Below, piece by piece: positions 4,169 through 24,299 of a stretch of 40,588 nucleotides of DNA (the stretch's first letter is position 1; the number at the start of each line of letters is the position of its first letter). Below the pieces are notes generated by a model. The model ran no database searches and was not told the origin of the DNA. It was given only the letters and a program-made list of their open reading frames with translations. The DNA is from a virus. The position numbers and the translations under genes were made by a program. The stretch covers positions 1-40,588 of the IMG/VR virus record IMGVR_UViG_3300038629_000542; one strand, given 5' to 3'.

Positions 4169-6031
4169 TTAACCTCCAATGACTTCTTGTTCAGGATATT
4201 CGTGATCTTCGTAATCGGCACTCCAGGCAACAATCCTGAAGGTGCCATTACAGTAAACCGGCTCGTCCTGGAACTCATCAAACTCAGGGATCACCAATGA
4301 CCATGCTGGTCGGTCGGGATGTCTTGCAAAGCTGCGCTTAAACAGCTTGCCATCGTCAGTCCACACCCCGTAAAAATCATGTCGGTAATCCAGCGCCGCC
4401 CTACGCGGCACATGGGCTATGGCACACTGGCGTCCGGCAGAACTCACGTCGAAATAGTAACGGACGTCAGGCGTATATGGGTACTGGTCCGAGTCGTCGT
4501 AATTATGTAAAAACGGGTGGCCGGTCCAATTGTGATGCTCATCGGTCCCTCCACCCTGCTCGCCGGTCGGATACTCGACCCCATTTACCCACAGGGTTTC
4601 AGCCCACGAAGCCGTTTCCTGCTGATGCCACCACTCGGCGACACAAGGCGCTAAGTAGTCCGGATAAGACGGGTGATCCTGGATGCAGCACCAGAAAAAA
4701 GGCTGGCCAAGATAATCTGAGCGCGCCGTCGTCAAGATCGCGGTATGCGTCTCCCGTCCATAGAGCATGGCCCCTTCTGTTTTGTTGCGCATACAGGTCC
4801 ACAATTCGTTGTTCTCACAATAGGTCGATGTCCTCGTATCATTGTAGCTGTAGTTGTGCGCCTGTCCGGCGATCGAGACATCATCGACCCAGCGGGACCC
4901 GCCAGGAAACCACCAATTAGGACCCTTATACTGCCTGTGGTTATTCTGCGGCAAAAGAGCTGGTCCGGTCAGTGGGATATACTTCTGTTCCTGAAAGGCC
5001 TTATCGGCAGCATAGTCCTGCTGAAACCAATATTTGACCGTGTTAGGTTGTCCGGAACACGGCCAAGGAGGACCAGGATAATCCCCGCAGCCTTCCGCCG
5101 AAAAGGTGATTCCCCCGCCACTCTGAGTGCAGCTTGGGAGGTCCTTGTTCTGCAGATGGTTCGTAATCGGGTGTGGCATCATAAGCGGAAAGGGCGGATC
5201 CGGATAAATATCGTAAATGTCCCAGTACCATTTCCCCTCGGTCCAGCCATCGATATAAAACCAGTAGCGCGTTGTCCACTCCGCATGGTTATAAAAGCGA
5301 TTATAGGCCTTCCAGAGCATGGCACCGGCATAGCCATCATGCAATGGCGAGTCACAGCAGGCATCCTCATAACAGTCAGTTGCAACCGCTTCGGTAGGGT
5401 GGATGTACGCATGATTGTTCACCGTCTGGGTGTACTCTCCATCCCAGTAACTCAGAGCAAAGCTGTCACTATTGCACGGGTAGTCGGTGATATCGCAGCG
5501 CTTTGCTCCCTCCATTTCCCCACCGTAATGCTGGATCTCCATCGGCATCCATGACGGATAGTTCTTTAAGTTGGTCTTCCACTGGCAGGCCGTAAAGGAT
5601 TGCCTGGGCGCATCAGCTGCCACCTTGACAAACTTGCCACCAGGGCCAAATTCCTCAAAAAACACATAGATCCCGATAAACGAAGAGACCATAGACCCTG
5701 GGGAGACCTCGCTTTCCCGCTCCACAAAGCAATCAAAGGCGATCATTAACCCGCCTTCATGGCGGGGGTCGCGCTGACGCTTAAAGCGACGCTTTTTCTC
5801 CACGCCCCTGACAGGGATAATGATCTTCTCCTTGCCATGCATCACCACGATGAAGTGGTGGCCCTCGCGTTTGCCATAGTAGATATCGAGACCTTTGTTG
5901 GCGACACGCAACACGCTAAGATGCTGCATCGCCGCATGGATCTTTGGCTCCTGCTCGGAGACCGAGATCTCTGCCTCTGCTTCTTGGGCAACCAATAAGA
6001 CCTCCACTCCTTGTCTGTTGATCTTAATCAT
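4169..6031 (-). CDS. Cys- and aromatic-rich structural protein, function unknown
   Basis: The 620-aa product starts with an N-terminal region of about 100 residues that looks globular (a beta-rich KIIIPVRGVEKKRRFKRQR stretch). It is followed by about 500 residues unusually rich in Trp, Tyr, His and Cys, including CYEDACCDSP and FFWCCIQDHP. There is no signal peptide or membrane segment. The many Cys and His residues suggest metal sites or, in an exposed particle protein, disulfides. The start ATG overlaps the stop of the upstream gene (ATGA). Position suggests a tail or receptor-binding component, but I cannot assign it to a family. Confidence 0.75.
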   Translation of the reverse strand: MIKINRQGVEVLLVAQEAEAEISVSEQEPKIHAAMQHLSVLRVANKGLDIYYGKREGHHFIVVMHGKEKIIIPVRGVEKKRRFKRQRDPRHEGGLMIAFDCFVERESEVSPGSMVSSFIGIYVFFEEFGPGGKFVKVAADAPRQSFTACQWKTNLKNYPSWMPMEIQHYGGEMEGAKRCDITDYPCNSDSFALSYWDGEYTQTVNNHAYIHPTEAVATDCYEDACCDSPLHDGYAGAMLWKAYNRFYNHAEWTTRYWFYIDGWTEGKWYWDIYDIYPDPPFPLMMPHPITNHLQNKDLPSCTQSGGGITFSAEGCGDYPGPPWPCSGQPNTVKYWFQQDYAADKAFQEQKYIPLTGPALLPQNNHRQYKGPNWWFPGGSRWVDDVSIAGQAHNYSYNDTRTSTYCENNELWTCMRNKTEGAMLYGRETHTAILTTARSDYLGQPFFWCCIQDHPSYPDYLAPCVAEWWHQQETASWAETLWVNGVEYPTGEQGGGTDEHHNWTGHPFLHNYDDSDQYPYTPDVRYYFDVSSAGRQCAIAHVPRRAALDYRHDFYGVWTDDGKLFKRSFARHPDRPAWSLVIPEFDEFQDEPVYCNGTFRIVAWSADYEDHEYPEQEVIGG

Positions 6032-6921
6032 CGGGCGTACCTCAATACCTGGTCCTCAAAGCGGGTGTCGTCTTCCAGGAACCCGCCCTGCCCATCTTCG
6101 GCCCCCGTTCCGACCGGCTGCATAACGAGCGTCGGTAGATCTACATCGAGGAACATGCTCTGCGTGTAAGCGCTGGCATCTATCCGCAAGTCCGGAAGGT
6201 TGCGGTCCAGCGCCAGCAAGTCACCGGCTGCTGCCGATGCCGCTATTTTTAAGGTCGGCAAATTGGCGTCCAGGTTCGCAACATGCGCGGAACTCATGGC
6301 CATCTCGACCATTAAGGCAGGCAGCTTGGCATCCAGGCCCCCCGCCAGCGGAGCTATGCCGGTTGCCTCGATTGTCATGCCTGGCAGCCTCTTGTCCACA
6401 GCTCCGTAGAGATGCGGCAAGGTTGCTTCTATCTGTAGGGCAGGGAGTTGGAGGCTGTCGGCCCTTGCACCGCCATTCGACTCCCCTACAAGCGCCGGAA
6501 GGCTCTTGTCGAGAAAAGCGATTCCCCCACCAAGACCGACAGCCTCACACTCTAAAGCAGGCAGATTCTCGTCAAGCTCACTGCCTGCTCGTGCATCTAA
6601 TTCCAGGATGGGCATTCTACACCCACCGCTTCTCGTCTCACCACGGTGTCCGAATTGCCCCTCGCTCTCTATGTGCGGCAAAAGCGTAGGGTCTATCGGA
6701 TCCGTCCAGATGAAATATTCATAAATCCAGCGCGTGATGATGCTCATCATGTTGGGCAAATAAGCAGCACCTGGGATCTGTAGCGTGTCGACAACCCGCG
6801 CTGCATCCACGAGATGCATGTGCATGCCATCGTCGACAGCCATGGCCGCAGTTGTCCCTGAACCCAGTGCCAGCGCAGGCACACTGTGATGGTGATAAGC
6901 GTCCTGGACGACTAAAGTCAT
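6028..6921 (-). CDS. LPxL-repeat protein with N-terminal YHHH motif, probable tail/fibre component
   Basis: The 297-aa protein begins with VQDAYHHHSVPALAL, a form of the His motif that fills the two giant proteins encoded upstream, and soon after has DGMHMHLVD. From about residue 100 onward it is made of some eight to ten units of 20-25 residues with consensus L(D)xxLPxLxIEA (examples LPALECEA, LPALQIEA, LPTLKIAA, LPDLRIDA). Regular short strand-like repeats of this kind suggest a beta-solenoid or trimeric fibre shaft. Start ATG follows GGGGAGG and overlaps the upstream stop (ATGA). The role in the particle is inferred from the repeats and context. Confidence 0.75.
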   Translation of the reverse strand: MTLVVQDAYHHHSVPALALGSGTTAAMAVDDGMHMHLVDAARVVDTLQIPGAAYLPNMMSIITRWIYEYFIWTDPIDPTLLPHIESEGQFGHRGETRSGGCRMPILELDARAGSELDENLPALECEAVGLGGGIAFLDKSLPALVGESNGGARADSLQLPALQIEATLPHLYGAVDKRLPGMTIEATGIAPLAGGLDAKLPALMVEMAMSSAHVANLDANLPTLKIAASAAAGDLLALDRNLPDLRIDASAYTQSMFLDVDLPTLVMQPVGTGAEDGQGGFLEDDTRFEDQVLRYAR

Positions 6922-7151
6922 TTAGACCTCCCCGATATTACAGGAATAACCCATTCAAGAGATTCTTGATAAACACCAAACCACCTATCTTCATCATTGG
7001 CAGTTTGGTTTAAGAGCTTCCTGTATTTTAAAGGCAACGATCTCCAGCAACTACTGCAAAAAACTGCCTCTTTCTTTAACCTGTTGCCACACACACAGCG
7101 CAAATCTTCTATCGTTGCCAAAAAAAAATAAGCAAGCGATGGACGATCCAT
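6918..7151 (-). CDS. Small zinc-ribbon-like protein, possibly inserted
   Basis: This 77-aa protein contains CVCGNRLKKEAVFCSSC, a CxC...CxxC arrangement of a small zinc ribbon, followed by a Trp/Tyr-containing tail. Codons are AT-richer than in neighbouring genes. It starts at ATG 7151 after GGGGAGGCCTA and its stop overlaps the next start. The 15-bp start contexts of this gene and the next are nearly identical (14 of 15), which suggests the gene was inserted in front of the 297-aa gene. Its upstream spacer is the hairpin run at 7164-7285. Function unknown. Confidence 0.6.
   Translation of the reverse strand: MDRPSLAYFFLATIEDLRCVCGNRLKKEAVFCSSCWRSLPLKYRKLLNQTANDEDRWFGVYQESLEWVIPVISGRSK
6922..6936 (+). 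repeat. Short direct repeat, copy 1 (start context of the 297-aa gene)
   Basis: TTAGACCTCCCCGAT, which on the minus strand is the Shine-Dalgarno and start context of the 297-aa gene. It matches copy 2 at 7151-7165 in 14 of 15 bases. Confidence 0.6.
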
Positions 7152-7165: not shown

Positions 7166-7285
7166 CAAAAACCTCAGTTGAGGCTTTTGATTTTAATTAG
7201 CCTCACATGAGGCTAATTTCCGATCAAAAAGTTCAGTTGCACCTTTTGATTTCTCCGATCAAAAGCGCAATGTTGCGCTATTGAT
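7164..7285 (-). repeat. Run of four consecutive hairpins in an intergenic spacer
   Basis: The spacer between the 246-aa gene and the zinc-ribbon gene is almost entirely palindromic. Hairpins lie at 7164-7191 (13-bp arms, one mismatch, 2-nt loop), 7195-7218 (11-bp perfect arms, 2-nt loop), 7223-7250 (ATCAAAA/TTTTGAT outer stem, imperfect core) and 7258-7285 (13-bp arms, one mismatch). Three share an outer ATCAA(A)A...TT(T)TGAT stem preceded by CG, but have different cores (CCTCA/TGAGG, GCGCAA/TTGCGC) whose two arms change together. The last one overlaps the upstream stop codon. They could act as terminators, attenuators or mRNA stabilisers. Confidence 0.75.
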
Positions 7286-8025
7286 TATGCGCCGTAGTAT
7301 TCAGGCAGGGTCAGCTTAAACGTATCGATCGTATAGGTCGAACCCACCACGATCGAGGTGCTGGTCATATTCAGATCTGCACCACTGGTCCCTACTGAGC
7401 CGTCTACCCTCGGAAGACTGGTGTCTGATCCACCGGCATCGGTCGCGTTGCCCACAAACCGGAACCAGCCAGCCGTCCCGTTGGCCAGGCCATTGTCCTG
7501 CCAGGTGTCCCCAGCGGCCTTGACGATAAAGCCAGTGGCGGCATCGCCGAATTCCAGACCGTTAGCATAGGCCCCATGGGCGAAAGCACCGCCGTCGACC
7601 GAGATCTCCAGCAGCAGGGTCCCAGATACCGCAGTATCCGCATTAGCCGGTTGGCTGCCCGAATAGATCCTTATGACCCCGTCCTTCAGAAGGTCTTTAA
7701 GAGATCCGCCCTTGCAGGATACCAGGGTGAAATACGTTCCCGTTCCCTCTGCGGTCAAAGCATCGCCTCCGACCAGGACCAGGGTCCCGATAGCGACAGT
7801 GGCGATCGTGTACGGCGTACCGTTAGTGTCGTTATTGGTGGTTCCTTCCACATGCACCTCATCGCCAGGCACAAAGCCAGCGGTTACGAACCCATTGCCG
7901 GTGTCGGTGATTTCATCGGGATTTGCATCGACGAACGCGATCCCGTTCCCGACCATCAGCGCTCGTGGCTCGGCAATCTTGCCCAGCATTAAATCCCTTA
8001 TTCCAGTTGAAAGTCGAAGTGTCAT
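7285..8025 (-). CDS. Phage structural protein (tail/neck type), beta-rich
   Basis: This 246-aa protein has the typical look of a beta-rich phage virion protein: Gly, Thr, Asp and Val rich, no membrane segment. It contains DGVIRIYSGSQPANADTAVSG followed by GTLLLEIS, a block I associate with uncharacterised tail-region proteins of environmental phages. Start ATG follows AAGGAGGTAAGAACA. The stop codon is inside the first hairpin of the downstream run. No enzymatic residues are apparent; the exact particle position is unknown. Confidence 0.75.
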   Translation of the reverse strand: MTLRLSTGIRDLMLGKIAEPRALMVGNGIAFVDANPDEITDTGNGFVTAGFVPGDEVHVEGTTNNDTNGTPYTIATVAIGTLVLVGGDALTAEGTGTYFTLVSCKGGSLKDLLKDGVIRIYSGSQPANADTAVSGTLLLEISVDGGAFAHGAYANGLEFGDAATGFIVKAAGDTWQDNGLANGTAGWFRFVGNATDAGGSDTSLPRVDGSVGTSGADLNMTSTSIVVGSTYTIDTFKLTLPEYYGA

Positions 8026-8038
8026 TGTTCTTACCTCC

Positions 8039-8521
8039 TTAAGATTGTGATGGTTTACGATTCAAGACGACCGGAATCAGCCGAATCGAATCTACGGAAA
8101 AATCAGACCCCCTCACGTTCTCCACCCGCAGCACCCAGTAACGCCCCTTGGCATTCCGAGGTAAAGGCACCACAGAGGTGTGCTGCTGCTGGTTCGCGTG
8201 AATTGGCGTGACATTGAAAATACGTTCATTCTCATCATCGTCCTTTATGATCAGCGTGAGCTGGCCATCGGTCTCATACCCGAAATAAGCGCGTCTAAAG
8301 CGCTTCTGGTGCTCAATGCCAAAGTCTGACGTGACGGTCTCAAAAAAAGCCTCGATCTCTGTGCCGTCATCGGTGTCTCCAGAATCCAGCTCAAATATCC
8401 CATCGTCGCTGGCCCCCAGGTAAACATCCCCGAATTTGCACATCGAATTAAAATTGTAGTTTTGATACTGGCTGGCAGCTAAGCGTTCCAGGGCCAGGCA
8501 CAGTCCTAAGAAATCAGCCAT
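8039..8521 (-). CDS. Tail-associated structural protein
   Basis: The 160-aa protein contains VYLGASDDGIFELDSGDTDDGTE, a strand-turn-strand element with a propeller-like look, and then a beta-rich half with HQKRFRRAYFGYETDGQLTL. This resembles domains seen near tail fibres of many phages. The start, preceded by GGAGGTGGTCA, overlaps the upstream 110-aa gene by 8 bp, so the two are probably translated together. I infer a tail or baseplate-like role from context; the family is not recognised. Confidence 0.7.
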   Translation of the reverse strand: MADFLGLCLALERLAASQYQNYNFNSMCKFGDVYLGASDDGIFELDSGDTDDGTEIEAFFETVTSDFGIEHQKRFRRAYFGYETDGQLTLIIKDDDENERIFNVTPIHANQQQHTSVVPLPRNAKGRYWVLRVENVRGSDFSVDSIRLIPVVLNRKPSQS

Positions 8522-8846
8522 TGACCACCTCCAAAATCATGTCGTCCCAGCCCAACCCGTTGGGATAGGTTGCGTCGTACAGGGTCAAGCGCGACTGGTA
8601 CTCGCCCACCTTCAACGCTTCGATGTGGCCCAGGTTGCTCAGGGTCAGACGACCGGTTGCGCCAGTGGTAGTCCAATCGAAGACGTTGGCCACCAGTCTG
8701 GAATCGAGTACATAGTGTGGGTTGTCCACCCCGCCGATATGGATGGTCATGCGGACGGTGCCGGTGATGTTGACATTGCGCCCATCAGCGCGCAGCCCCA
8801 CGCTCACTGCATTGTCTCGGCCTTTGTAAATTGTCTCGTGGATCAT
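8514..8846 (-). CDS. Small tail/fibre-accessory protein
   Basis: The 110-aa protein is beta-rich: IYKGRDNAVSVGLRADGRNV, then alternating hydrophobic strands and YQSRLTLYDATYPNGLGWDD near the end. The layout resembles N-terminal attachment domains of baseplate or receptor-binding proteins that carry strings of short strands, but similarity to BppU-type domains is only an impression. Its ATG overlaps the stop of the 1564-aa fibre gene (ATGA), so it is translationally coupled to it. It may attach to or chaperone that fibre. Confidence 0.7.
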   Translation of the reverse strand: MIHETIYKGRDNAVSVGLRADGRNVNITGTVRMTIHIGGVDNPHYVLDSRLVANVFDWTTTGATGRLTLSNLGHIEALKVGEYQSRLTLYDATYPNGLGWDDMILEVVNG

Positions 8847-11800
8847 GAGTAAATTCTCCGAGGTGTTGTTAAACTGGTTAAAAGCCTCACGGTTGTCTCA
8901 GAGCGCATAGTGGTCGGCTCTACGACAACCAGGAACGATTCAGGGATCAGCCGATCGATGTGGTCCACACGAACCAGGTGATAAGCCTCAACAGCAGTAA
9001 TGGTTATATCCAACCCAACAAGGCTATCGGCGACATGAACAAGCGCATCGCCTGTGATGGTCAGGGTCTGGGACAGGTCGAGGGGGCCATCATCGACCAG
9101 GTCGTGGTTGGCCTCGTTGACCTGTAATGCCAGGGTGAGGTTGTCTGAGACCACAGCGTGAGAGGCCTCGGCAACGGCGAGCGTGATACCAAATGCGGGA
9201 ATCGCATCTACGGCATGGACATGATAGCTCTCGCCCACTGAAAAGACGTAAAGCCCATCGTCGGTCAGAACGTGATAAGCCTCGGCAACCCACCACAAGG
9301 GATCAACGCTCACAACAAGGTGGTAGGCCTCGGCGATGGTCAGCGCACCTGACAGGCTAATGCTATCTACAGCGTGGGAATGGTAACTCTCGTGTACTGA
9401 AAAGACATAAAGGCCGTCGTCGGCCAAGACGTGATAAGCTTCCTGCACCCACCATAAAGGATCGCTGGTGGCAATCGCGTGATACATTTCGTCGACCCAC
9501 CACAAGGGGTCGCTGGTGGCAACCGTGTGATACGCTTCGTCAACCCACCAGAGCGGATCCCGCGAAGCAACCGAGTGATAAGCTTCCTGGACCCACCATA
9601 AGGGATCCTGGGGGACGTTCAGATGGAACGCATCCTCTGGGAATATGTGAGAGACCCCAGTCTCCAACAGGTACAGCTCATCGATATAGAGGTAGTGCAG
9701 GGGCGTCCCTGTCCAGTCATGGAGGAAGCGCACCTGGGCCGTTTTCCCAGACACATAATTGGCGACATTAAGCTCCCAGGTGTAGTCGTAATCGTCGTCG
9801 CCCACGCTTTCCATATCGCGGGTGGCAGCCGTAAGATCGTCCCAGCCTGGCACGATATAATTATAGGCCTGGACCTTTACGATGTGAGAGGGGTTGCCCA
9901 CATATCGGCCATTGAGGTTCACCCACAGCTCAGAGAGGCTGGTCGGGATGTCGTCGAATGTAAAGTCGACTCGGAAACCAGGATCTCCGGTCGCCTCATC
10001 GATTCGCATGTGGACGCCATTGTCCTGCTTGGTGTCTGAAAGAGCGCCGTCCCCAAGGGACCCAGGGCCGACTTGATAGCTGTCAGCCCACCGGTCATAG
10101 AGGATCAAGGCAATCGGGCCGTCATCGGCGGTTACATGAGCGCTCTCGTCTACCCACCACAGGGGCTGCCGGTCCACTATTAGGTGATAGGCTTCTTCGA
10201 CCCCCAAGGCTCCAATATCCAGCACAAGGCCACCGACAAGGTGAAGGTGGTAGGCCCCCTCCACCGAGAAGACGTCTGCCGTATCTATAACGTGGAGGTG
10301 ATAGGCCTCTTGGACCCACCACAATGGATCGCTGGTGACTAATAGGTGGTAGGCCTCCTGGACAGGAAGCTGGGTGACCGGCTGACACTGATCCACTGCG
10401 TGAAGGTGATAGGCTTCATTGACCCACCAAAGTGGATCTTGCGCGACGTGAGCGTGTATAGCGCCTGCGATGGAGAAGATCTCGATGTCCAATGCGTCAT
10501 TATCATCGACATCGTGATAGCAGTTGAGATCCCCAGGCAGAACCGTGCGCGCTCGCACCTCCATCCGGACCAGAAACAGGAACTCGTTGACCAGGGCATA
10601 ATTCTTAACGTCGGCGGTCATCGTCTGGTCGTTGCCCGATGTGGATTTGTAGCACCAGTCGGTCGTGTTGTACGGGAACTTATGCGCCGCGCTGACAAAA
10701 ATGTGGATAAGGTGGTCGAGGGTGTCATCAACGGCAAAAGGCACCCAGTCAGACCATGCCGTCTGACCGGCAGCTATGGCCTTGGAGTCGCTGCCCCCGT
10801 CGAAGGTAAAACGGACATGCAGGACAGCGGTCGAATCATAGTCAAATAGCTCACCACCGGTCGCACGTCGGCCTATCGAGGCCCCGTTAACGGTAATGCC
10901 CTCGGTCGGAGGAGCCTCCAACTTTAAGCGAATAAAGCCGTCTGAGTCGCCATAATCGAAATCAGCCGCCTCGACGATCATGCGGTAATTTTTGGCGGCA
11001 GCAGACACGCCTTCAGATGGGACCGTGCCACTCCAGGCGGTCACCGACAGATCGATCTCATCGCACACATGAACATGCTGACAGCGATTGATCGCCATGA
11101 CACCTTGGGCCGACAGGCCGCCAGTGGCGATCTCCATGTAATCGACGTAATAGCTGGAATCGGTGTAACTATTGTCGTTGGCGCAAAAGACCCCACTGTA
11201 GCCTTCTGTCAGGGTAGAGTCGGTGGTTTCAAGCGTCCATGCGCCAGGCTCCGGATCACCATGCTCCCACACTCTCATCTTCAAGGCCGTTCCTTCGGCC
11301 CGACAGCGCATCCAATACCAGGTGCTTGGAGTAAGGGTAAAGTCCGTCTGGATAAGCGTGTTCCAGCTGCCGTCATAGTGGGTGATCCGGACCCTATCTT
11401 GCCCCATGAGGAGCCGAAACCAGTAGGATTCATTGTCATAGAAGTTTTGATTAAAAGTCTCAGGCTGATGGCGCAGAAGAACCGCGATAATGCCATCGAA
11501 ATTAAAGGGAGTCATTACCTTGACCAAATGCTCCGAGTCCTTGACCCTGAAATCACAGTTAAATTTGTACGGGTAGAGAAACCGCCAATAATTAAGGCTG
11601 TAATACCCCTGCTTCCAGGCCAACATGGATTGCTGGCCGTCGCCAAAAGCATCGATAGCATCCGCTTGGAGCGACGAACCCTGCGGAGTAAATACTGATT
11701 GCGGATAACTCCAAGAAGCTGAACCGCCCACGCCTTTGGCAAATTCGTGAAAATCTGTTCGCCAACGCCCTTTTAACCGGACAAATTCGCCCTCGTGGTA

Positions 11801-13537
11801 ATGTGCAGCCGATTCCACGTTCAGCGTTTGGGTTTCTGCGGGTTTGGCTCCGCGCACCCAAATTTCCTCGACGCACCAGATATAGTTTTTCGCAAAGCCA
11901 CCGCCAGGGCATTTGCTCCTATGATAGCTATCCAGCCCCCCAAACTGGTGCATGTTTTCCCATGAGGTATCCGTCCATTCGGGCCAATGGCCAATCCGCT
12001 CGTTGGTCCTAATTTGCTGACCGCCGCTATTTGAGTAGATGGTTCGGCTTCTGTCCTGCTGTGCGCAACCGGAACGTAGACTAAGGGTAGCGTTTGGTCC
12101 CCCCTGGTGATGGAGAAGCAGCTCTTCGCCTTGCCTGACATCCATGGACATCCAGTCGGTTTCGACCTCACCGCTGTCCCATTGTTTTGTGTAGGAACCG
12201 GCATCAAAAGTAAATTCTGTGGCAGGCTCTAAAAATTCGTGAGTATCTCCAAGGCGGCGACCGAGTCCCAATCGTCGGATGTCGTTGCCAAAGGTATGGT
12301 TGTAGCCCTGGCAAACTATCTTGACCTCGGTCCCAGCTGTCGACAAAGGCTCGATGTGGGTTCGGGTCATAAAGTATTCGTACATGGAAAAATAACTAAG
12401 GCCACTACCTGGCTCCCAGACCGCCGCTGACCACGCCAGGGTCTCGGTCAGGACACTGTCGACGATGTGGTCGTGTATAGCGCCCGAAATGGAGAAGATC
12501 TCGATGTCCAATTCATCGTTGTCGATGACGTCCAGATCGTTACCGCCTACTGGGGAGATGACCAGGTCGGTCGGCGGGATGATCTCCTGGACGACTATCG
12601 GACCCTCAATATCGTGTGTATGGTAAGCCCCCTGGACCCACCAGAGCGGATCGCTGGTCACCACCAGGTGATAGGCCTCTGATACCCACCAGAGGGGATC
12701 GTCGGTCACTAAGAGGTGGTAAGCCTCAGCAGTTGCTATCCAAAGATCCAGGCTGACAGGATCAACGGCATGTAGGTGGTAGGCCTCTTGGACCCACCAG
12801 AGTGGATCATCTGTCACCAACAGGTGATAGTCCTCGCCTGCATCGGTGTGGACCAAGGTGATTGGCGGAAAGATGTGCTGGATGGTAATCGAGCTGCCGT
12901 CGTTGTCGTCCAGATAGTTGTAGGATTCTGAAACCCACCAGAGCGGATCGGAGATGGCATGCGTGAGATAATCTTCACCGGCATCGGTGTGAACCAGGGT
13001 GATGGGGCCTGCGGCGAGCGTTATGGTAACCGCGATGGAACCCGCAAGCGCCTGGGTGTTTGTCGTGTCATAAACCTGGAAGGTGTAGGTCGAACCATCG
13101 GTCGCGTTAGTGAAGTCCAGGCCCCACAGGACAGCCGTCCATTCTTCTTTGGCACACGCGCTTCCGGTGATAGCGCCGTCAGTACATTGAATCACCCCGA
13201 CTGCCGTGTTGGCACAACCGGCAGGGGTGCCAGCGCACCGGTCGGTCCCTGGGTTGCCTTCAGTCAGCCCAGCGCTATCATAGGCGCGAACCTCGCCCGA
13301 TCCAGCCACAACATCGCCATAACCGCCGCCGTCCTTATCAACCTGAAGCTTTAAGCCGGTCACCGCCGACGCCTTGTTACAAGTCCCCGCGTTACTGTAA
13401 TTCACCTGGGTGCAGAGGATCAGGGGCGTAGCTTTAGCGTGACCGGCAAGCGGCGTATTCTCGGTCCCGACGTTAGAGGTGTCCGCGTCGTTTCGGAGAA
13501 TCGAGTTGTGATGATCTGCTAAATAATATGTTCCCAT
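8843..13537 (-). CDS. Giant His/Trp-repeat fibre-like protein with lectin-like domain
   Basis: The 1564-aa product has a unique N-terminus (about 1-180) and three repeat blocks at roughly 185-320, 1030-1130 and 1310-1530. The units are DPLWWVxEAYHxxxxx and xxEAYHxHAVDxxxL; I count 12 PLWWV cores. Between blocks lie a concanavalin/LamG-like domain (about 620-810, with TPSTWYWMRCRAEG and YVDYMEIATGG) and another beta domain (about 1140-1295). Such architecture fits a long tail fibre or adhesin that displays carbohydrate-binding domains on repeat stalks. HxH motifs resemble the iron-binding sites of some trimeric fibre tips. Start ATG directly follows the upstream TAA; the site is AAGG. Function is inferred. 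Confidence 0.85.
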   Translation of the reverse strand: MGTYYLADHHNSILRNDADTSNVGTENTPLAGHAKATPLILCTQVNYSNAGTCNKASAVTGLKLQVDKDGGGYGDVVAGSGEVRAYDSAGLTEGNPGTDRCAGTPAGCANTAVGVIQCTDGAITGSACAKEEWTAVLWGLDFTNATDGSTYTFQVYDTTNTQALAGSIAVTITLAAGPITLVHTDAGEDYLTHAISDPLWWVSESYNYLDDNDGSSITIQHIFPPITLVHTDAGEDYHLLVTDDPLWWVQEAYHLHAVDPVSLDLWIATAEAYHLLVTDDPLWWVSEAYHLVVTSDPLWWVQGAYHTHDIEGPIVVQEIIPPTDLVISPVGGNDLDVIDNDELDIEIFSISGAIHDHIVDSVLTETLAWSAAVWEPGSGLSYFSMYEYFMTRTHIEPLSTAGTEVKIVCQGYNHTFGNDIRRLGLGRRLGDTHEFLEPATEFTFDAGSYTKQWDSGEVETDWMSMDVRQGEELLLHHQGGPNATLSLRSGCAQQDRSRTIYSNSGGQQIRTNERIGHWPEWTDTSWENMHQFGGLDSYHRSKCPGGGFAKNYIWCVEEIWVRGAKPAETQTLNVESAAHYHEGEFVRLKGRWRTDFHEFAKGVGGSASWSYPQSVFTPQGSSLQADAIDAFGDGQQSMLAWKQGYYSLNYWRFLYPYKFNCDFRVKDSEHLVKVMTPFNFDGIIAVLLRHQPETFNQNFYDNESYWFRLLMGQDRVRITHYDGSWNTLIQTDFTLTPSTWYWMRCRAEGTALKMRVWEHGDPEPGAWTLETTDSTLTEGYSGVFCANDNSYTDSSYYVDYMEIATGGLSAQGVMAINRCQHVHVCDEIDLSVTAWSGTVPSEGVSAAAKNYRMIVEAADFDYGDSDGFIRLKLEAPPTEGITVNGASIGRRATGGELFDYDSTAVLHVRFTFDGGSDSKAIAAGQTAWSDWVPFAVDDTLDHLIHIFVSAAHKFPYNTTDWCYKSTSGNDQTMTADVKNYALVNEFLFLVRMEVRARTVLPGDLNCYHDVDDNDALDIEIFSIAGAIHAHVAQDPLWWVNEAYHLHAVDQCQPVTQLPVQEAYHLLVTSDPLWWVQEAYHLHVIDTADVFSVEGAYHLHLVGGLVLDIGALGVEEAYHLIVDRQPLWWVDESAHVTADDGPIALILYDRWADSYQVGPGSLGDGALSDTKQDNGVHMRIDEATGDPGFRVDFTFDDIPTSLSELWVNLNGRYVGNPSHIVKVQAYNYIVPGWDDLTAATRDMESVGDDDYDYTWELNVANYVSGKTAQVRFLHDWTGTPLHYLYIDELYLLETGVSHIFPEDAFHLNVPQDPLWWVQEAYHSVASRDPLWWVDEAYHTVATSDPLWWVDEMYHAIATSDPLWWVQEAYHVLADDGLYVFSVHESYHSHAVDSISLSGALTIAEAYHLVVSVDPLWWVAEAYHVLTDDGLYVFSVGESYHVHAVDAIPAFGITLAVAEASHAVVSDNLTLALQVNEANHDLVDDGPLDLSQTLTITGDALVHVADSLVGLDITITAVEAYHLVRVDHIDRLIPESFLVVVEPTTMRSETTVRLLTSLTTPRRIYS
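9416..9607 (-). repeat. Four perfect-period 48-bp coding repeats (DPLWWV units)
   Basis: Within the giant gene, four consecutive 16-codon units begin with Asp-Pro-Leu-Trp-Trp-Val at 9607, 9559, 9511 and 9463. On the plus strand each contains an ACCCACCA core. Units differ at synonymous and a few variable positions, so they diverged under selection on the protein rather than being a fresh DNA expansion. Confidence 0.8.
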
Positions 13538-13879
13538 TTAAAAATACCTTATGCAGCACCCCAGATCTTTAAAATCGTTTTCGGGCGGGTCGTCTATGCA
13601 GCAAGACGGCCTCTGATGCCCAGCTGAACAAAGCCCATCCTCGGTTAGCTTGTTGCACCGGCCTTCACCATTGGTGCCAAAAGACAAATAATCGTCAGGG
13701 ATCTCCAGGCAGCAGGCCGCGCACTGGTTGCATCGGACAACCTTGAGCCTGACGCCCTCCCTGTCGTTCCACTTGAAAATCAATTCTTGATCAGCGGTCA
13801 GCCTTAGCTGTCGCTTCTTCCTGGCCCAATCCGGAAGCGCCTCGATTAGCTCTTCGATAATTTCCATCAGCTCTCTCAT
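13538..13879 (-). CDS. YkgJ-like CxxCxxCC cysteine-cluster protein (copy 2)
   Basis: The 113-aa protein has a charged helical N-terminus and then RCNQCAACCLEIPDDYLSF, the CxxCxxCC signature of the YkgJ/UPF0153 family, followed by further cysteines in RCNKLTEDGLC and RPSCCIDD. Members are thought to bind zinc or an Fe-S cluster; their biochemical role is poorly known. It lies between the two giant repeat genes with an ATGA overlap to the first and a stop adjacent to the second start. That position suggests a role in maturing these fibres, possibly metal delivery or modification (inference). A second copy is at 23784-24299. Confidence 0.75.
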   Translation of the reverse strand: MRELMEIIEELIEALPDWARKKRQLRLTADQELIFKWNDREGVRLKVVRCNQCAACCLEIPDDYLSFGTNGEGRCNKLTEDGLCSAGHQRPSCCIDDPPENDFKDLGCCIRYF

Positions 13880-16800
13880 GAAACCCTCCTAAGACTGACA
13901 ACCCTGGTGTACTTAAAGCCGCCACGGCGCGGCAGGGCCTGGTATTCAATATTGTCTGAGTCCACCATATGCCACTGCTCAGAACTCAGCTCTAACCAGC
14001 AGTTTTGGGTGATAGCCACATTGTCAACCATCTGATCACAGCTGGCCTCCTGGACCGTCAACCAGGGGTGGATCCCAGGGACCTCGGCCACATGGTCGTG
14101 AAAAGCCTCGGCCACGGCCATCGCAAAAACATTCTGCAGCGCCAGCGGACCCTCATCCACCAGGGCATGAGCGGATTCGGCGATAACGAGGTGGACCCCC
14201 AGAGCGACATTGTCCGAGACCACGGCGTGGTCGCCGTCTGCCGGTCTTATAAAGTCCTGGTTAAAATCGATATTGTCAGAGTCCATGGCATGGCCGGACT
14301 CAAGCACAGACAGATTGCGCCTTGTGGTCATCGCGCAGTTGTCGACGATATGATCGTGGATGGCCTCATTGACCGGCATGGATACGCCCAGCCGGAGGTG
14401 GTAATACCCCTCTGGGGCCTGCTGGGATTCATGAAAGTGGAAACATTCGGCGGGGACCAAATTGTTTACATCAGTGATCGATACGGTGAGCTGATCCGCA
14501 TAATGGCCATGGTACGAAGACGCCACCTCAAGCTGAAATATGATCCGGTCGGAGTCCGTTGTGTGGTAGGCCTCCTGCACCAAAAGCGGAACAGCCAGAG
14601 CTACGAGGGGGCTGTCGATATCGTGGTCTGACTGTTGGGCGAGGGTGTGGACCGTGAGCGCGCCAAAAGGACCATCGTGAGCGTGGTAAATCTCGGCAAC
14701 CTGGAGCGCAATATCCATGCCCTCCACCAGGTCGGAATCCATCTCGTGGGAGCATTCGTTGACCCCCAGGATCTGTCGAATCTCGATCGGGAGTTCGTCG
14801 TTGTCATTGATATCGTGATAGCAGTATGCGGTAGCGATCAACAGGTCCAGGCCGAAGGTGTCGGCAAAATGTAAATGATAAGCCTCCTCTATCACTTGCA
14901 AGTCGGGCCAAGCAATTTCGGGAGAGTCCGTCTCGTGGTAACAGCTATTTGGGATTGCATTGGCGTTGAAGACGCCCAGGGCATCAATGACATGGGTATG
15001 GAACGCGCCATTGATGGAAAATACATTCGCCTGGTCAGCGACGTGGGCGTGATAAGCGCCATTGATCGAGTAGGCCTCGATGGCCGCGCCGTCATTGTCG
15101 TCCAAATAGCAATAGTCTTCACCGCCATCAGGATGGACCAGGTCGATCGGGGCGACAACCGGCGTGACCGTAATCGGGTTGCCGTCGTTGTCATCGGTTT
15201 CGTGATAACAGGAATGCGGCACCAGCACATTAGAGGCCGTCGCATCACCAGTGGCGATCGAGATCGTCTCGTAATATGTAGCTGCGTTGCCGCCCCAGGT
15301 ATTGTAGCCACAACCAGGGCCAATCCACCCGCCAGCGCCCATTGTGTCGTCGGTGACTTCAAGGTGCCAGGCGGCGGGTTCGGGCGAACCCTCGGCCCAA
15401 TACTTCGCCTTAAACTCATCACCCTGAAACCGGAAACGGCACCAATACCAGGTTTGATAAGGCATCCCTGGGGGCGTCAGGTTTAAAGACCCAAGCGTTG
15501 TCCTGGTGTAGCCAGGAACAACCTTGTATATTACGATCCAATCGGAGCTACCTGATTGCTGATAAAAATCAACATTATAGCCCCAGCGGTTGTAAGAAGG
15601 GGGTTCCCCGCCTGCTCTAACCCAAAACGTCGGCTGATGATCCTGAATGGTGTTCGTATAAAAGTTGAAAAGGACTTCGCCGTCCCTTACTCCGCTGTGC
15701 GTCAACCAATTCCACATTGAAGGGCCAGCGATGGTTGACTTGCAAAGCGCCACCTGGCCTTCTTTGCCCCCAGCGCTTGCTTTCGTCCAAAACGTATTAT
15801 ACGCGTCCGTGTACCATTTGTTCGCTGAAAAATCGGCAGGGATTTGGTCGATGACATCATCCCGAAACTGACGGTAGTCCTTAATCGCCATCTGAGGCTC
15901 TTCGCTTGTAACCTCGTGGTAGCAGTCCTTGGCATTGGCCCAAGCAGGATCAATCAAGATGACATCAGAGTCTACAGTGTGATAGTTGCCCTCCGTCAGG
16001 CCAGGCAGCCATTCAAGCAGCCGGAAGGAATCGACCTCGTGGCGATGGTAGGCGTCGTTAATGTTCAACAGGTCGGTCTGGGTGGTGACCGTCATCCCCC
16101 CTACCGGCCAAACGACCCGAAACTCATGGCAAAGCAATTCCCAATTCGGGTTGATGGTCCAGGTCATAATATAGCTGTGGATCCTAAATGGGGGAACGCC
16201 AGTCCACCCTTCCACGGTTCGGAGAAGCGTCCACTCTCCAACGGCAGCGTCTCTGACCCACCACTGGATTGTGGTGCCGGTCTTGGTGATCCGCATCCAC
16301 CAATTAAACATCGGCTCTACACGAGCATATCCGACCCCGTCAGTAATGAATTCGGCATCATATGCGGTGTACCAACTGTGGCCGCCGCTATACGCCCAGT
16401 AAAACTGCATTCTTGTCGCGGGATTATTAACGTCATAAACGATGGTTCCAGGCGAGCAAGCACCATAGTTGTAATTCATCGTGTAAAAATTGGAGACCTT
16501 CGCCCTGATCTCAAAGTTGGGTGTATAAATGTAATTCCGGTGGTGAAGATGAAACTGATTGTTGTTGCATGGGGTGGCATTAAGCATCCCATCGCCGTTA
16601 TGGATATGGAACATGGTGGTGGTCGTTCCGGCTGGATAAATCCATTTATCATCGGCCCAGGGATCGTCATTTGCCCCGCTAAAGTCGTCATTGTAAAACA
16701 GGCCGGAGGCGTCATGGGAGTGGACGTTGCTAAAGATCTGCAGCCCCTTGGTTGAGTCTTCACCCATGGTAGGTGACTGGGCCTTGTGAGGATGGGAACA

Positions 16801-16902
16801 GCTATCGGGATACACCCAGGCTGGATCAATTATGACATTATCCGCCACATGGGCGTGGGAGGCGCTTTGTACAGCAGCTGTGTATTGATATATTACTGTC
16901 AT
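13876..16902 (-). CDS. Giant His-repeat fibre-like protein with two lectin-like domains
   Basis: The product is about 1008 aa from ATG 16902. I prefer this start over a GTG 24 bp upstream because that GTG lies inside a terminator-type stem. It opens with SASHAHVADNVIIDP, then two LamG/concanavalin-like domains (about 80-280 and 350-560; the second has QTWYWCRFRFQGDEF and YYETISIATGDA). Many units such as CYHETDDND, AYHAHVADQ and EAYHTTDSD fill residues 560-990, and it ends in a basic SLRRVS tail. It is a paralogue in design of the 1564-aa protein. A receptor-binding or host-surface-binding fibre is the likely role. No clear Shine-Dalgarno precedes the start. Confidence 0.85.
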   Translation of the reverse strand: MTVIYQYTAAVQSASHAHVADNVIIDPAWVYPDSCSHPHKAQSPTMGEDSTKGLQIFSNVHSHDASGLFYNDDFSGANDDPWADDKWIYPAGTTTTMFHIHNGDGMLNATPCNNNQFHLHHRNYIYTPNFEIRAKVSNFYTMNYNYGACSPGTIVYDVNNPATRMQFYWAYSGGHSWYTAYDAEFITDGVGYARVEPMFNWWMRITKTGTTIQWWVRDAAVGEWTLLRTVEGWTGVPPFRIHSYIMTWTINPNWELLCHEFRVVWPVGGMTVTTQTDLLNINDAYHRHEVDSFRLLEWLPGLTEGNYHTVDSDVILIDPAWANAKDCYHEVTSEEPQMAIKDYRQFRDDVIDQIPADFSANKWYTDAYNTFWTKASAGGKEGQVALCKSTIAGPSMWNWLTHSGVRDGEVLFNFYTNTIQDHQPTFWVRAGGEPPSYNRWGYNVDFYQQSGSSDWIVIYKVVPGYTRTTLGSLNLTPPGMPYQTWYWCRFRFQGDEFKAKYWAEGSPEPAAWHLEVTDDTMGAGGWIGPGCGYNTWGGNAATYYETISIATGDATASNVLVPHSCYHETDDNDGNPITVTPVVAPIDLVHPDGGEDYCYLDDNDGAAIEAYSINGAYHAHVADQANVFSINGAFHTHVIDALGVFNANAIPNSCYHETDSPEIAWPDLQVIEEAYHLHFADTFGLDLLIATAYCYHDINDNDELPIEIRQILGVNECSHEMDSDLVEGMDIALQVAEIYHAHDGPFGALTVHTLAQQSDHDIDSPLVALAVPLLVQEAYHTTDSDRIIFQLEVASSYHGHYADQLTVSITDVNNLVPAECFHFHESQQAPEGYYHLRLGVSMPVNEAIHDHIVDNCAMTTRRNLSVLESGHAMDSDNIDFNQDFIRPADGDHAVVSDNVALGVHLVIAESAHALVDEGPLALQNVFAMAVAEAFHDHVAEVPGIHPWLTVQEASCDQMVDNVAITQNCWLELSSEQWHMVDSDNIEYQALPRRGGFKYTRVVSLRRVS

Positions 16903-16905
16903 AAT

Positions 16906-16946
16906 AAAAAAAGGGCGAAGATCCACACTCGGCGCGGATCTCCGCC
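16906..16946 (-). terminator. Intrinsic terminator or attenuator directly before the first giant fibre gene
   Basis: On the minus strand GGCGGAGATCC pairs with GGATCTTCGCC (11 bp, one G-U, 11-nt loop) and is followed by C and seven T (16912-16906), just before ATG 16902. An alternative stem GGCGCGG/CCGCGCC (16959-16965 with 16931-16937) encloses most of the terminator's first arm and could compete with it. On the plus strand that alternative stem is itself followed by TTTTT. Confidence 0.75.
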
Positions 16947-16972: not shown

Positions 16973-17398
16973 TTAAGCAGGATCTCGAATCTCAATATCC
17001 CACGCAGGGGTGTTCACCTTGTTGCCATTACTCAAGCTCTGGGAGGTACAGGTGGTCGTGTACAGCACCTTTTGCAGAGAGGCCGAAGATGAATGATATT
17101 GAATAACACCCACATGAGTGGCCGAGGCCGAGGACGCAGGGCCGGTGATGCTCATCGAGCTGACCGCGTTGACCGCGATCTTGCGTCCGGAACTGTCCCC
17201 TTCAGCAGGGCCGGTATAAGCCGATGAAGCGATGGTTTTCGTCGCAATCAGGTAACCGGAGCTTTGCTCTGGCTTCATCGCGTTGGCATACGCGGAAGCT
17301 CCGGTCGGCTCGGCTGTCAATACGATCAGCCTGGTTCCATTGGACTTCAAGATATTCAGGGCAGCGTCCAATACGTCGTCGTGTACATTTTTAGCCAC
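16973..17398 (-). CDS. Small structural protein of tail/neck region
   Basis: The 141-aa product begins with a short helix (VHDDVLDAALNILKSNGTRL), then LIVLTAEPTGASAYANA and a Ser/Thr/Ala-rich beta region ending in PAWDIEIRDPA. Proteins of this appearance occur beside fibre genes in other podovirus-like genomes, but I have no name for the family. It starts at GTG 17398 with GGAGGATAAAGAAA and overlaps the upstream gene by 8 bp. It is followed after 26 bp by the terminator-type structure that precedes the first giant fibre gene. Confidence 0.75.
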   Translation of the reverse strand: MAKNVHDDVLDAALNILKSNGTRLIVLTAEPTGASAYANAMKPEQSSGYLIATKTIASSAYTGPAEGDSSGRKIAVNAVSSMSITGPASSASATHVGVIQYHSSSASLQKVLYTTTCTSQSLSNGNKVNTPAWDIEIRDPA

Positions 17399-18366: not shown

Positions 18367-19290
18367 TTAGGGTTCCAGGGTTGTCACGTAGCGCGCATTG
18401 TTGGCCTCCATAAAAAGGCCAGCACCATATGCCGCTCGCGGATACGATAATTTGCGTCGGGTAACATTAATAAAAAGCCCTCCGGACGACCCAACGCAGA
18501 TCCCTTTTTCAGACGTCCAGATGGCTCCTGAGCCGGAGAACTCCGGCACTTCAAGCCCTGTTATCGACAGGTCCAGCCTGGCATCAGTCCCCTCAATCGG
18601 TGGGTAATCGGCCACCTCGATGAACTTCACATCCCTGGGGTTGTCCCCAGCCAAGAAAATGGTCCGCTTGTCGGTTCCGACAAAGATGCCGTCTCTGACA
18701 GGGCGGACCATCCGGATGCGCTCCTCAAAAAGAGTGAAGTTGCGAGCCAGGTCAAAAGCCCCTGTGCTATAAGGCTCTGAGTACCAAAGCACTTTTCCTT
18801 GAGCCACGTAAATTCGGCCATTAAAGTACGCAAGGCGCGAGCCGATGGGAGGATCCGAATACTCTCGTGTAGTGTCCGGCCCAACGTAATCGCCCTTGAT
18901 CCAGCTGTAATTAACCGAATCCTTGACGTAGCCTTTTTCATAGCCGTTCAGCCAATAAACGGCGCTATTGTGTTGCATCGCGGCAAGCCGCGCTCCTGCA
19001 GTGACAGTCGCCACAGACGCAGATCCGTAGCTACTGTCGAGCACACGCAAAGAGGTGCCGGTGACAAATATGCACTCACCCCCCTCACAGAACATGGAGT
19101 GACTGGCCTCGGTGCGAACCGTGGCCGTGAACCCCTTGCGCCGCGATGGGCGTCCGGTGCTGTCGTGGTCGATGTTAACGGCAACCGCTAAATCCTGAAC
19201 CCCGCTCTTGGGGTCAAAGGGCAGCCGCACAGGGTCGACCTTTACGTTCAGCCCAGATGAAGCGCTAAATGCGAGAATCGGCTTAGCCAT
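18367..19290 (-). CDS. Beta-propeller-like neck/tail protein
   Basis: From ATG 19290 (MAKPILAFSASSGLNV, with GGGAG upstream) the protein has 307 residues. An in-frame start 33 bp further upstream is less likely. Sequence alternates strand and turn elements: FNGRIYVAQGKVLWYSEP, RDGIFVGTDKRTIFLAGD and GAIWTSEKGICVGSSGGLF look like blades of a propeller. Proteins like this follow the head-tail adaptor in several podovirus-type genomes and are regarded as tail or stabilisation proteins. Its start overlaps the adaptor gene by 8 bp. The specific role is inferred from position. Confidence 0.7.
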   Translation of the reverse strand: MAKPILAFSASSGLNVKVDPVRLPFDPKSGVQDLAVAVNIDHDSTGRPSRRKGFTATVRTEASHSMFCEGGECIFVTGTSLRVLDSSYGSASVATVTAGARLAAMQHNSAVYWLNGYEKGYVKDSVNYSWIKGDYVGPDTTREYSDPPIGSRLAYFNGRIYVAQGKVLWYSEPYSTGAFDLARNFTLFEERIRMVRPVRDGIFVGTDKRTIFLAGDNPRDVKFIEVADYPPIEGTDARLDLSITGLEVPEFSGSGAIWTSEKGICVGSSGGLFINVTRRKLSYPRAAYGAGLFMEANNARYVTTLEP

Positions 19291-20011
19291 ACAGATAGGA
19301 CTCCCAGTCGATCTCTTCGGCAATCTCTTCAGGCTCGTCTTCTTCAGGACCCAGGAACAGCCTCAAATCTCCTTCAGCCTCTTTGTACTTTTTGTCGTAG
19401 TACGCGGTGTTCACCTTCTGGCCCTCAAGGCCATCTTCGATCTCCTCGTAGGCCTCGCGGCAGGCATAGCTGACCAGCAAGTCCTCGGTGAGATGTTCGG
19501 GCAAACACGTAGGCTTGTCATATCGATCTCTAAGCCGGTCGGGATATCGATAATAACGTATGCGGAGAGTCTCGGCTGTCTCTGGAACCCGCTGGTAATA
19601 GAGCCTTCGTTGGCTGACCGTCACTCCGATGACACGACCGAATTGATCAAGCTGCGAAAACAGCCGGTACAATTGAGCCAGGCTGCCGTAGCGGCTGATC
19701 TTGCGGTTGTGCGTAGTGGAGTGGCAGTAGCTGAGCTTGCGTTGATAATCGGCGGGTAGGTTCACCCAGTTGGATCGCGGATCCGTAAGAATGGGCCTGT
19801 AGACTTCCAGATCCGCCAGGGTAAACTTACCAGATACCTTCCGCAGGCAACGGTTGAACATCTGAACGATCCGATCGTGGGTATAGCTGGTATCCTGGAT
19901 CTTGTCCTTAACCAGGTCCGTCAAGCTCTGGGCGTCATCGACTTCGTCGTGGCCCCATTGCTCGCCATAGCCCTCAAGGACCGCCAGCTTGGCGTCAAGC
20001 TCGTTGGCCAT
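19283..20011 (-). CDS. Head-tail adaptor-like protein
   Basis: The 242-aa protein is mainly helical at its ends with a beta centre. It contains LTDPRSNWVNLPADYQRKLSY and RRLYYQRVPETAETLRIRYYRYP, followed by LTEDLLVSYACREAYEEIEDG and an acidic C-terminus. This arrangement, with a strand segment giving x-P-x-x-Y then a helix that covers the age of assembly contacts, is typical of phage adaptor proteins encoded a few genes after the capsid. It would attach below the portal as a connector (P22 gp4-like role). Assignment rests on pattern and gene order. Confidence 0.65.
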   Translation of the reverse strand: MANELDAKLAVLEGYGEQWGHDEVDDAQSLTDLVKDKIQDTSYTHDRIVQMFNRCLRKVSGKFTLADLEVYRPILTDPRSNWVNLPADYQRKLSYCHSTTHNRKISRYGSLAQLYRLFSQLDQFGRVIGVTVSQRRLYYQRVPETAETLRIRYYRYPDRLRDRYDKPTCLPEHLTEDLLVSYACREAYEEIEDGLEGQKVNTAYYDKKYKEAEGDLRLFLGPEEDEPEEIAEEIDWESYLYG

Positions 20012-23534: not shown

Positions 23535-23851
23535 TAGGTCGGGTCGAACTCCAGGTGGAAACCCCACTTGTACTCCACCAGTTGCAGCCAGCTTGCTTTT
23601 ATGCCAAGCTCTTTAGCCAGCTTATTCAAGACCACACGGATCTGAGCCTTGCTGACAATTTTGGCATGGTCCAGGATGTCCTCGGCATTGCCATCCGGAT
23701 GGAGGCTGCCGTTCATATGGACGCCGTCGCGCCGAGAGCTGATATGGACCTCGGCCCCATTTTTTTCGTATAGCGTTTCAATCCTACCGTGCGCCTTGCG
23801 CATGATCGGGGACAGGCTCCCCCGACAGCTCTCCTTTACCCACGTCGTCAT
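23534..23851 (-). CDS. Small M15-type peptidase-like protein, candidate endolysin
   Basis: The 105-aa protein contains GSLHPDGNAEDI (residues 48-59), matching the SxHxxGxAxD zinc-binding signature of M15 peptidases, and near the end EYKWGFHLEFD. The expected zinc ligands are His51, Asp58 and His99, with Glu93 as possible catalytic base. M15 enzymes cut D-Ala-containing peptide bridges of peptidoglycan, so a lysis or entry role is likely. At 105 aa it is near the minimum for the fold. Start is fixed by AAAGGAGGAAGACC before ATG 23851, even though this overlaps the YkgJ-like gene by 68 bp. Confidence 0.7.
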   Translation of the reverse strand: MTTWVKESCRGSLSPIMRKAHGRIETLYEKNGAEVHISSRRDGVHMNGSLHPDGNAEDILDHAKIVSKAQIRVVLNKLAKELGIKASWLQLVEYKWGFHLEFDPT

Positions 23852-24299
23852 GGTCTTCCTCCTTTACCACTGGGCAGATTAGCTTCAACCTGACAGCTCC
23901 CAGGTAGCACTGCAGATTTATGTCCGGACGCTTCTCAAATTTACGGCAAATAAAGGGTCGCTTTTCGTAGATCAGGCAGCCCTTCCCGTCATCGAGATGC
24001 TGGCATGGCAGCTCAAAGGCCATGAACATCTTTTTGCCCCACTTGAGTATCTTAAAGCCCCAAGTGTCGGCGAGGATCAAGAAGTTTCGCCGCGCCCTTT
24101 CTTCGCTTTTAGGGCCTTCGACGATCGGAACAAGCAGGGTGCGGCAGCACATCTGACATTCCACGCAATCGATTTCAAGATTCTTAAGATCCTCCTTCAA
24201 TACCTCGGAGGAGATGGCCCTCACGCCCTTGCTCTTCTTAAGCGCCTCCGCCTCAGCTGGCGTTGTTGGCTGGGGGCGTGGCCTTGCTTCATCAGTCAT
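23784..24299 (-). CDS. YkgJ-like CxxCxxCC cysteine-cluster protein (copy 1)
   Basis: The 171-aa protein has a variable, Pro/Arg-rich N-terminus and then DCVECQMCCRTLLVPI (Cys45, 48, 51, 52), the CxxCxxCC signature of the YkgJ/UPF0153 family. Later come ELPCQHLDDGKGCLIYEKRP and FICRKF, the second cysteine set of this family. The family is believed to chelate zinc or hold an Fe-S cluster; activity is not established. It lies just upstream of the M15-like gene and overlaps its start by 68 bp. A shorter relative is encoded between the giant fibres. Confidence 0.8.
   Translation of the reverse strand: MTDEARPRPQPTTPAEAEALKKSKGVRAISSEVLKEDLKNLEIDCVECQMCCRTLLVPIVEGPKSEERARRNFLILADTWGFKILKWGKKMFMAFELPCQHLDDGKGCLIYEKRPFICRKFEKRPDINLQCYLGAVRLKLICPVVKEEDHDDVGKGELSGEPVPDHAQGAR

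Follow-up and report, generated by a model that had tools for sequence, protein, structure and literature searches.

Two giant genes in the window, by which we mean the whole stretch of 40,588 nucleotides analysed (IMG/VR record IMGVR_UViG_3300038629_000542), probably encode virion adhesins of an SU10-adaptor-type tailed phage (probability about 0.7); they would act in host recognition from the tail or another appendage and carry carbohydrate-binding-like domains on a stalk of β-repeats. To judge from their sequences, these repeats are a drifted, tryptophan-rich form of an uncurated 22-residue phage repeat with an HxH motif, here called HxH-22. In the mechanism that we propose, the two genes (BIG and SMALL) are the content of a hypervariable slot, probably one for host recognition, whose borders are the conserved genes w141 and w110. 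The carbohydrate-binding-like domains of their products would be strung on a β-rich stalk of degenerate 16-23-residue units; these units belong to a 22-residue repeat that is widespread among phages and accompanied in its loci by genes of the w141 family. Most of the paired-His sites have been lost from the window proteins, with PLWWV probably substituting buried aromatic packing, and the HxH units that persist, a minority, may still hold Fe or Zn. The stalk itself would be elongated, β-structured and probably homotrimeric.

The two giant genes and their variable slot

Both genes lie on the minus strand and, as the preliminary description had it, share one repeat plan. BIG (8843..13537) encodes 1564 aa comprising an N-terminal region, three repeat blocks and at least one ConA/LamG-like domain; SMALL (13876..16926) encodes 1016 aa from a GTG codon, with a probable ATG start at 16902, the gene end given previously. 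The BIG repeat blocks A (12422..13009, minus strand, residues 177-372), B (10112..10537, minus strand, residues 1001-1142) and C (8936..9652, minus strand, residues 1296-1534) contain four, three and five PLWWV units respectively; in block C four of these are spaced at 16 aa (48 bp), and near-canonical units stand at the block end. SMALL has a canonical unit close to its N-terminus (AVQSASHAHVADNVIIDPAWV; 16807..16875, minus strand; 24.5 bits against the profile of the relatives) and a main repeat block (13942..15231, minus strand, residues 566-995) in which HxH units are mixed with H-x-x-DSDN units. The A5 profile of the relatives matches three window proteins (E-values 4.5e-19, 5.2e-6 and 5.9e-6), the first of these values being that of the SMALL main block. 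A third repeat protein of 297 aa (6028-6921) carries two HxH units at its N-terminus (6799..6915, minus strand), grafted onto an array of LDxxLPxLxIEA repeats; the HxH part is absent from its L061 homologue, in the L056 virus.

The carbohydrate-binding-like domains of BIG (11108..11770, minus strand, residues 590-810) and SMALL (15247..15894, minus strand, residues 345-560) are paralogous, with 37 % identity. The BIG domain matches a protein of Streptomyces phage Dagobah (E-value 2e-3) and the SMALL domain one of Streptomyces phage Yara (E-value 6e-7), and among the Streptomyces phage matches of both domains one is annotated as 'carbohydrate binding'. Neither domain gave a Pfam match, the Laminin G/ConA-like family PF13385 included, although true Laminin_G_3 domains are present in the relatives L013, L026 and L058. 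The domains had been described as LamG-like and lectin-like; their likeness to each other, the phage match and the LamG domains of the relatives bear out a lectin-like character in part, while the LamG label finds no Pfam match in the window.

The slot lies among structural genes, all on the minus strand. Upstream are a head-closure Hc3-like protein (18367..19323; phrog_8040, 2.4e-36) and, just before SMALL, w141 (16973..17398; 141 aa); the slot itself holds SMALL, a gene for a 113 aa CxxCxxCC protein (13538..13879; weak Pfam CxxCxxCC match, E-value 0.3) and BIG. Directly after BIG comes w110 (8514..8846), a small protein that stands likewise behind the repeat gene of L018/L014 and L056; next are two virion structural proteins, w160 (8039..8521; phrog_26502, 1.1e-20; 60 % identity in L055/L056) and w246 (7285..8025; phrog_3758, 4.9e-23). 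Closer relatives of the window virus, found through w141 itself, share its MCP, adaptor, Hc3 and w319 (39-78 % identity) in so far as their contigs extend to these genes; behind the slot, L055 and L056 both have w110, w160 and w246.

The content of the slot is variable. In L056 it holds an unrelated 539 aa protein with a signal-peptide-like start and a 481 aa HxH repeat protein, and in L055 (L055:3866-4889) nothing lies between w141 and w110. The gene after w141 encodes a signal-peptide-like protein in L054 and a phrog_2448 protein in L053, both contigs ending early, and the slot of the more distant L018 contains a YadA-head protein and an HxH-22 repeat protein. Elsewhere among the relatives the repeat genes adjoin tape-measure, minor tail, Hc3 or portal genes. 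Most likely, on this comparison of gene order, the w141-w110 slot behaves as a host-recognition (receptor-binding) locus, and it is mainly because adhesin-bearing content is swapped here between conserved structural genes that we assign BIG and SMALL a surface adhesin role. That they should instead be capsid-attached head fibres is rather unlikely, and slot position alone does not separate head from tail fibres: the slot is near the MCP, adaptor and Hc3 genes, and w160 and w246 at its flank fall into PHROGs classed under 'head and packaging', but the repeat gene adjoins tape-measure or minor tail genes in L029 and L040, and the gene directly behind the w141 homologue of Octadecabacter virus 2 is annotated as a tailspike.

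Several neighbouring genes deserve mention in their own right. The L018 protein (L018:1987-4149) is a YadA-head repeat protein (PF05658, 7.5e-30) encoded by a phage and adjoining an HxH-22 repeat protein. CxxCxxCC genes (YkgJ-like, putatively metal-chelating) are present in the window at 13538-13879 and 23784-24299, and L058 also carries one; among the repeat loci examined the motif was confined to the window and L058, and we rejected a metal-loading role for these genes as a feature of the repeat module. A 77 aa zinc-ribbon-like protein (CxxC...CxxC) is encoded among the structural genes at 6918-7151.

The HxH-22 family and its partner gene

Direct searches with BIG and SMALL returned no IMG/VR relatives and almost none among phage records, because the window repeats are divergent. 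The family was reached with a hand-made generic consensus modelled on similar phage repeats, in which a unit of about 22 residues is written out four times; this query matched Microcystis phage Mae-JY22 and IMG/VR contigs, and DNA patterns yielded many more. In all, about 60 contigs of IMG/VR and two MAG contigs were found to carry the repeat, as was a single record (Mae-JY22) among 50,697 from phages; given the search patterns used, this number of relatives is a minimum. The relatives share the consensus VxDAxHxHxADNxxLTQxHxL and repeat it every 22 aa exactly (168 of 185 intervals; a second set comprises 397 intervals), and canonical repeat proteins have a median of 11 rungs (maximum 27). Both His residues are kept in approximately 85-86 % of units (175/205 in the first set; the second was fetched by the HxH pattern, so that its rate is slightly biased), arranged as A-x-H-x-H-x-A on one face, and the commonest substitute for His is Gln (7 %).

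The window repeats are homologous to this family. With a profile made from the relatives only, seven windows of SMALL and two of BIG score at least 8 bits, against shuffled means of 0.015 and 0.005 respectively. A two-unit HMM of the relatives gives 83.8 bits for SMALL and 28.9 for BIG, the best shuffle reaching 4.9; the reversed sequences score 49.7 and 3.7, the former because A-x-H-x-H-x-A is nearly palindromic, so that part of the 83.8 bits of SMALL is owed to this palindromy, and the match of BIG is modest. The window repeats do not keep the strict 22 aa period, their units being mostly spaced at 16-23 aa. No model in Pfam, PHROGs or NCBIfam matches them, and we found no literature directly on the HxH-22 repeat. 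The earlier remark that the repeat is not a recognised domain is therefore largely borne out, but one relative is caught above cut-off by the Pfam family PTR, and the repeat is common in uncultured phages and not unique to the window. Present in many such phages, HxH-22 has neither a curated model (one marginal PTR match aside) nor a structure, and naming it should let annotators spot receptor-binding proteins in viral dark matter.

Membership of the family is also marked by the neighbouring gene, and the window has it in w141. Members of the w141 family share the motif KxVHDDVLDxAL...WDIEIxDP and w141 has no match in Pfam or PHROGs; homologues are present in 16 loci of the initial set of repeat loci, always on the same strand and 10 to 3,319 bp from the repeat gene. 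In an independent test of this pairing, 75 new loci were fetched by the repeat pattern alone, of which 41 encode the repeat and 34 do not; w141 is carried by 28 of the former and none of the latter (p 1e-10), and of the 13 repeat loci without it, most are cut off on one side after no more than about 0.6 kb. Only two of the 50,697 phage records contain w141, namely Mae-JY22 and Octadecabacter virus 2, and in the latter a gene with His-free 22 aa repeats lies near the w141 homologue. We infer an attachment or assembly role for w141. A bolder proposal, to which we give little credence at present, sees HxH-22 and w141 as the two genes of an appendage module common to many uncultured phages. A homotrimeric stalk would bind one metal ion per 22-residue rung, w141 would be the partner devoted to its attachment or assembly, and the window virus would have been derived from this plan by exchange of most metal rungs for aromatic PLWWV rungs.

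Repeat units, predicted structure and metal

Anchoring the units on a histidine by regular expression gives some 25 for BIG and 21 for SMALL, or about 46 together, numbers that depend on the expression used and are approximate by one or two borderline units either way. HxH is kept in nine BIG and ten SMALL units (19/46, 41 %) and the second His is missing from the other 27, a rate significantly below that of the relatives (Fisher p 3e-9), in which both His residues are the rule. The EAYHxHxxD core described previously is thus a feature of real repeats that nevertheless fits a minority of them. The count of 12 DPLWWV variants in the larger protein is confirmed, one of the 12 having Q in place of D; the [D/Q]PLWWV motif is absent from the whole of SMALL, and among PLWWV units only 1 of 11 has the second His (Fisher p 0.016 against the other window units). 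The DNA of the repeat copies is 60-82 % alike. PLWWV is invariant in 12/12 copies, although its codons vary (four for P, five for L and four for V) and 246 of 400 same-residue codon pairs across the copies differ. An invariant peptide with freely varying codons means that the motif is under selection and is not the product of fresh duplication.

AlphaFold2 monomers are of low confidence, with a pLDDT of 52.1 for SMALL residues 674-985 and 59.3 for seven canonical units. In both, regular strands recur about every 22 residues, as would be expected if the repeats were a single-chain β-solenoid of about 22 residues per turn with the His residues in a surface or hydrogen-bonded ladder, and the weak Foldseek neighbours in the PDB are mostly β-solenoids (pectate lyase, MfpA and the FHA/EtpA secretion domains). 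These models are too uncertain to separate a solenoid from a trimer, however, and Foldseek found nothing at an E-value of 0.001 or below with either of them, the best PDB values being 0.33 and 0.033; sequence and profile searches of the PDB returned nothing relevant. AlphaFold2 is prone to fold perfect repeats as solenoids, and phage stalks are usually trimeric. The corresponding slot of L018, moreover, is occupied by a YadA-head protein, a trimeric adhesin. On all these grounds we regard the solenoid as a possible but distinctly less probable structure.

The preliminary description had pictured an adhesive fibre with metal along its whole stalk, in which HxH pairs of three chains would meet on the axis and hold Fe or Zn at every repeat. 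Iron in an HxH trimer site is known from the solved structure of R-pyocin fibres, and T4 gp37 and the P2/phi92 spikes are cited as further HxH precedents (PMC6116203). The gp12 tail fibre of Alteromonas phage R22Y (L045:5949-7994) has four consecutive HxH motifs exactly 22 aa apart with a PTR-like DIxGL core, but the claim of iron binding there is a docking onto a prediction only (PMC11705849). The high retention of HxH on one face in the relatives speaks for such sites, while the Gln substitutions speak against them, as do related 22 aa repeats that have no HxH at all (L052 gp11, L010 and part of L028), from which it follows that the architecture needs no metal pair. In the window proteins a whole-length metal-strung stalk is unlikely because most units lack the second His, most markedly those with PLWWV, and as a general account of this fibre we consider it improbable; by analogy with the solved sites, metal at each 22-residue rung is plausible in the canonical relatives. 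What survives of the earlier picture is the adhesin role, which is backed by gene context. The HxH-22 family makes the idea of iron in phage fibres testable, since it offers dozens of candidate sites together with natural site-less variants as controls.

It is likewise improbable that the window repeats belong to the Pfam family PTR (PF12789, 'phage tail repeat like'), and we have rejected this assignment. One relative, L019, clears the cut-off of 27 bits with a score of 54, there are weak matches in L022, L029 and L031, and R22Y gp12 combines the 22 aa HxH spacing with a PTR-like core, but nothing in the window reaches the PF12789 gathering cut-off or matches it otherwise, and a profile-profile comparison of PTR with HxH-22 scores 12.0, less than the 14.7 reached by the best of the column-shuffled controls. 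We note separately that the published 'iron-binding domains' of R22Y gp12 resemble PTR-type repeats. Sequence comparison thus makes the window proteins divergent members of the uncurated HxH-22 family and neither PTR proteins nor iron fibres of the gp37 type.

Comparison with known systems

The T4 gp37 tip and the R-pyocin shaft resemble the window proteins in having HxH on a β-strand of a phage-type fibre, but no sequence relation is detectable (the PDB profile search was empty), the trimer and metal are putative here, and HxH sites occur along the window stalk in 41 % of units. PTR proteins (the MJing1 'tail repeat like protein' and R22Y gp12) are like HxH-22 in their 22 aa spacing and HxH at the unit start, but their core, HxHxIxDVxGLxxxLDxK, is different and has no significant match to the window. 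The trimeric YadA-head adhesin next to the L018 repeat gene occupies the corresponding genomic slot in a related virus, although its repeat sequence is different.

His-free repeats of 22 or 23 aa (Octadecabacter virus 2 gp11, L010/L011 and the N-terminal part of L028) share the period and the ...xQxHxLT... half-unit with HxH-22 but have GAP or TAP in place of HxH. Profile-profile comparison of HxH-22 with the GAP repeats scores 16.3 against 9.7, above all 30 controls, with a low absolute probability (14 %). In L028 repeats of the GAP type and of the HxH type stand in a single reading frame (L028:7779-9049), which thus links the two kinds naturally.

The closest resemblance is to the HxH-22 proteins themselves, such as those of Mae-JY22 (XAI95683), L009, L022 and L056, which share with the window the VxDAxHxHxxD...L unit in a β-rich tandem array and, like the window proteins, often stand behind ConA/LamG-like domains with a w141 partner. 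The window proteins depart from them in their 16-23 aa units, the absence of the second His from about 60 % of these, the private PLWWV motif and the interruption of the arrays by domains.
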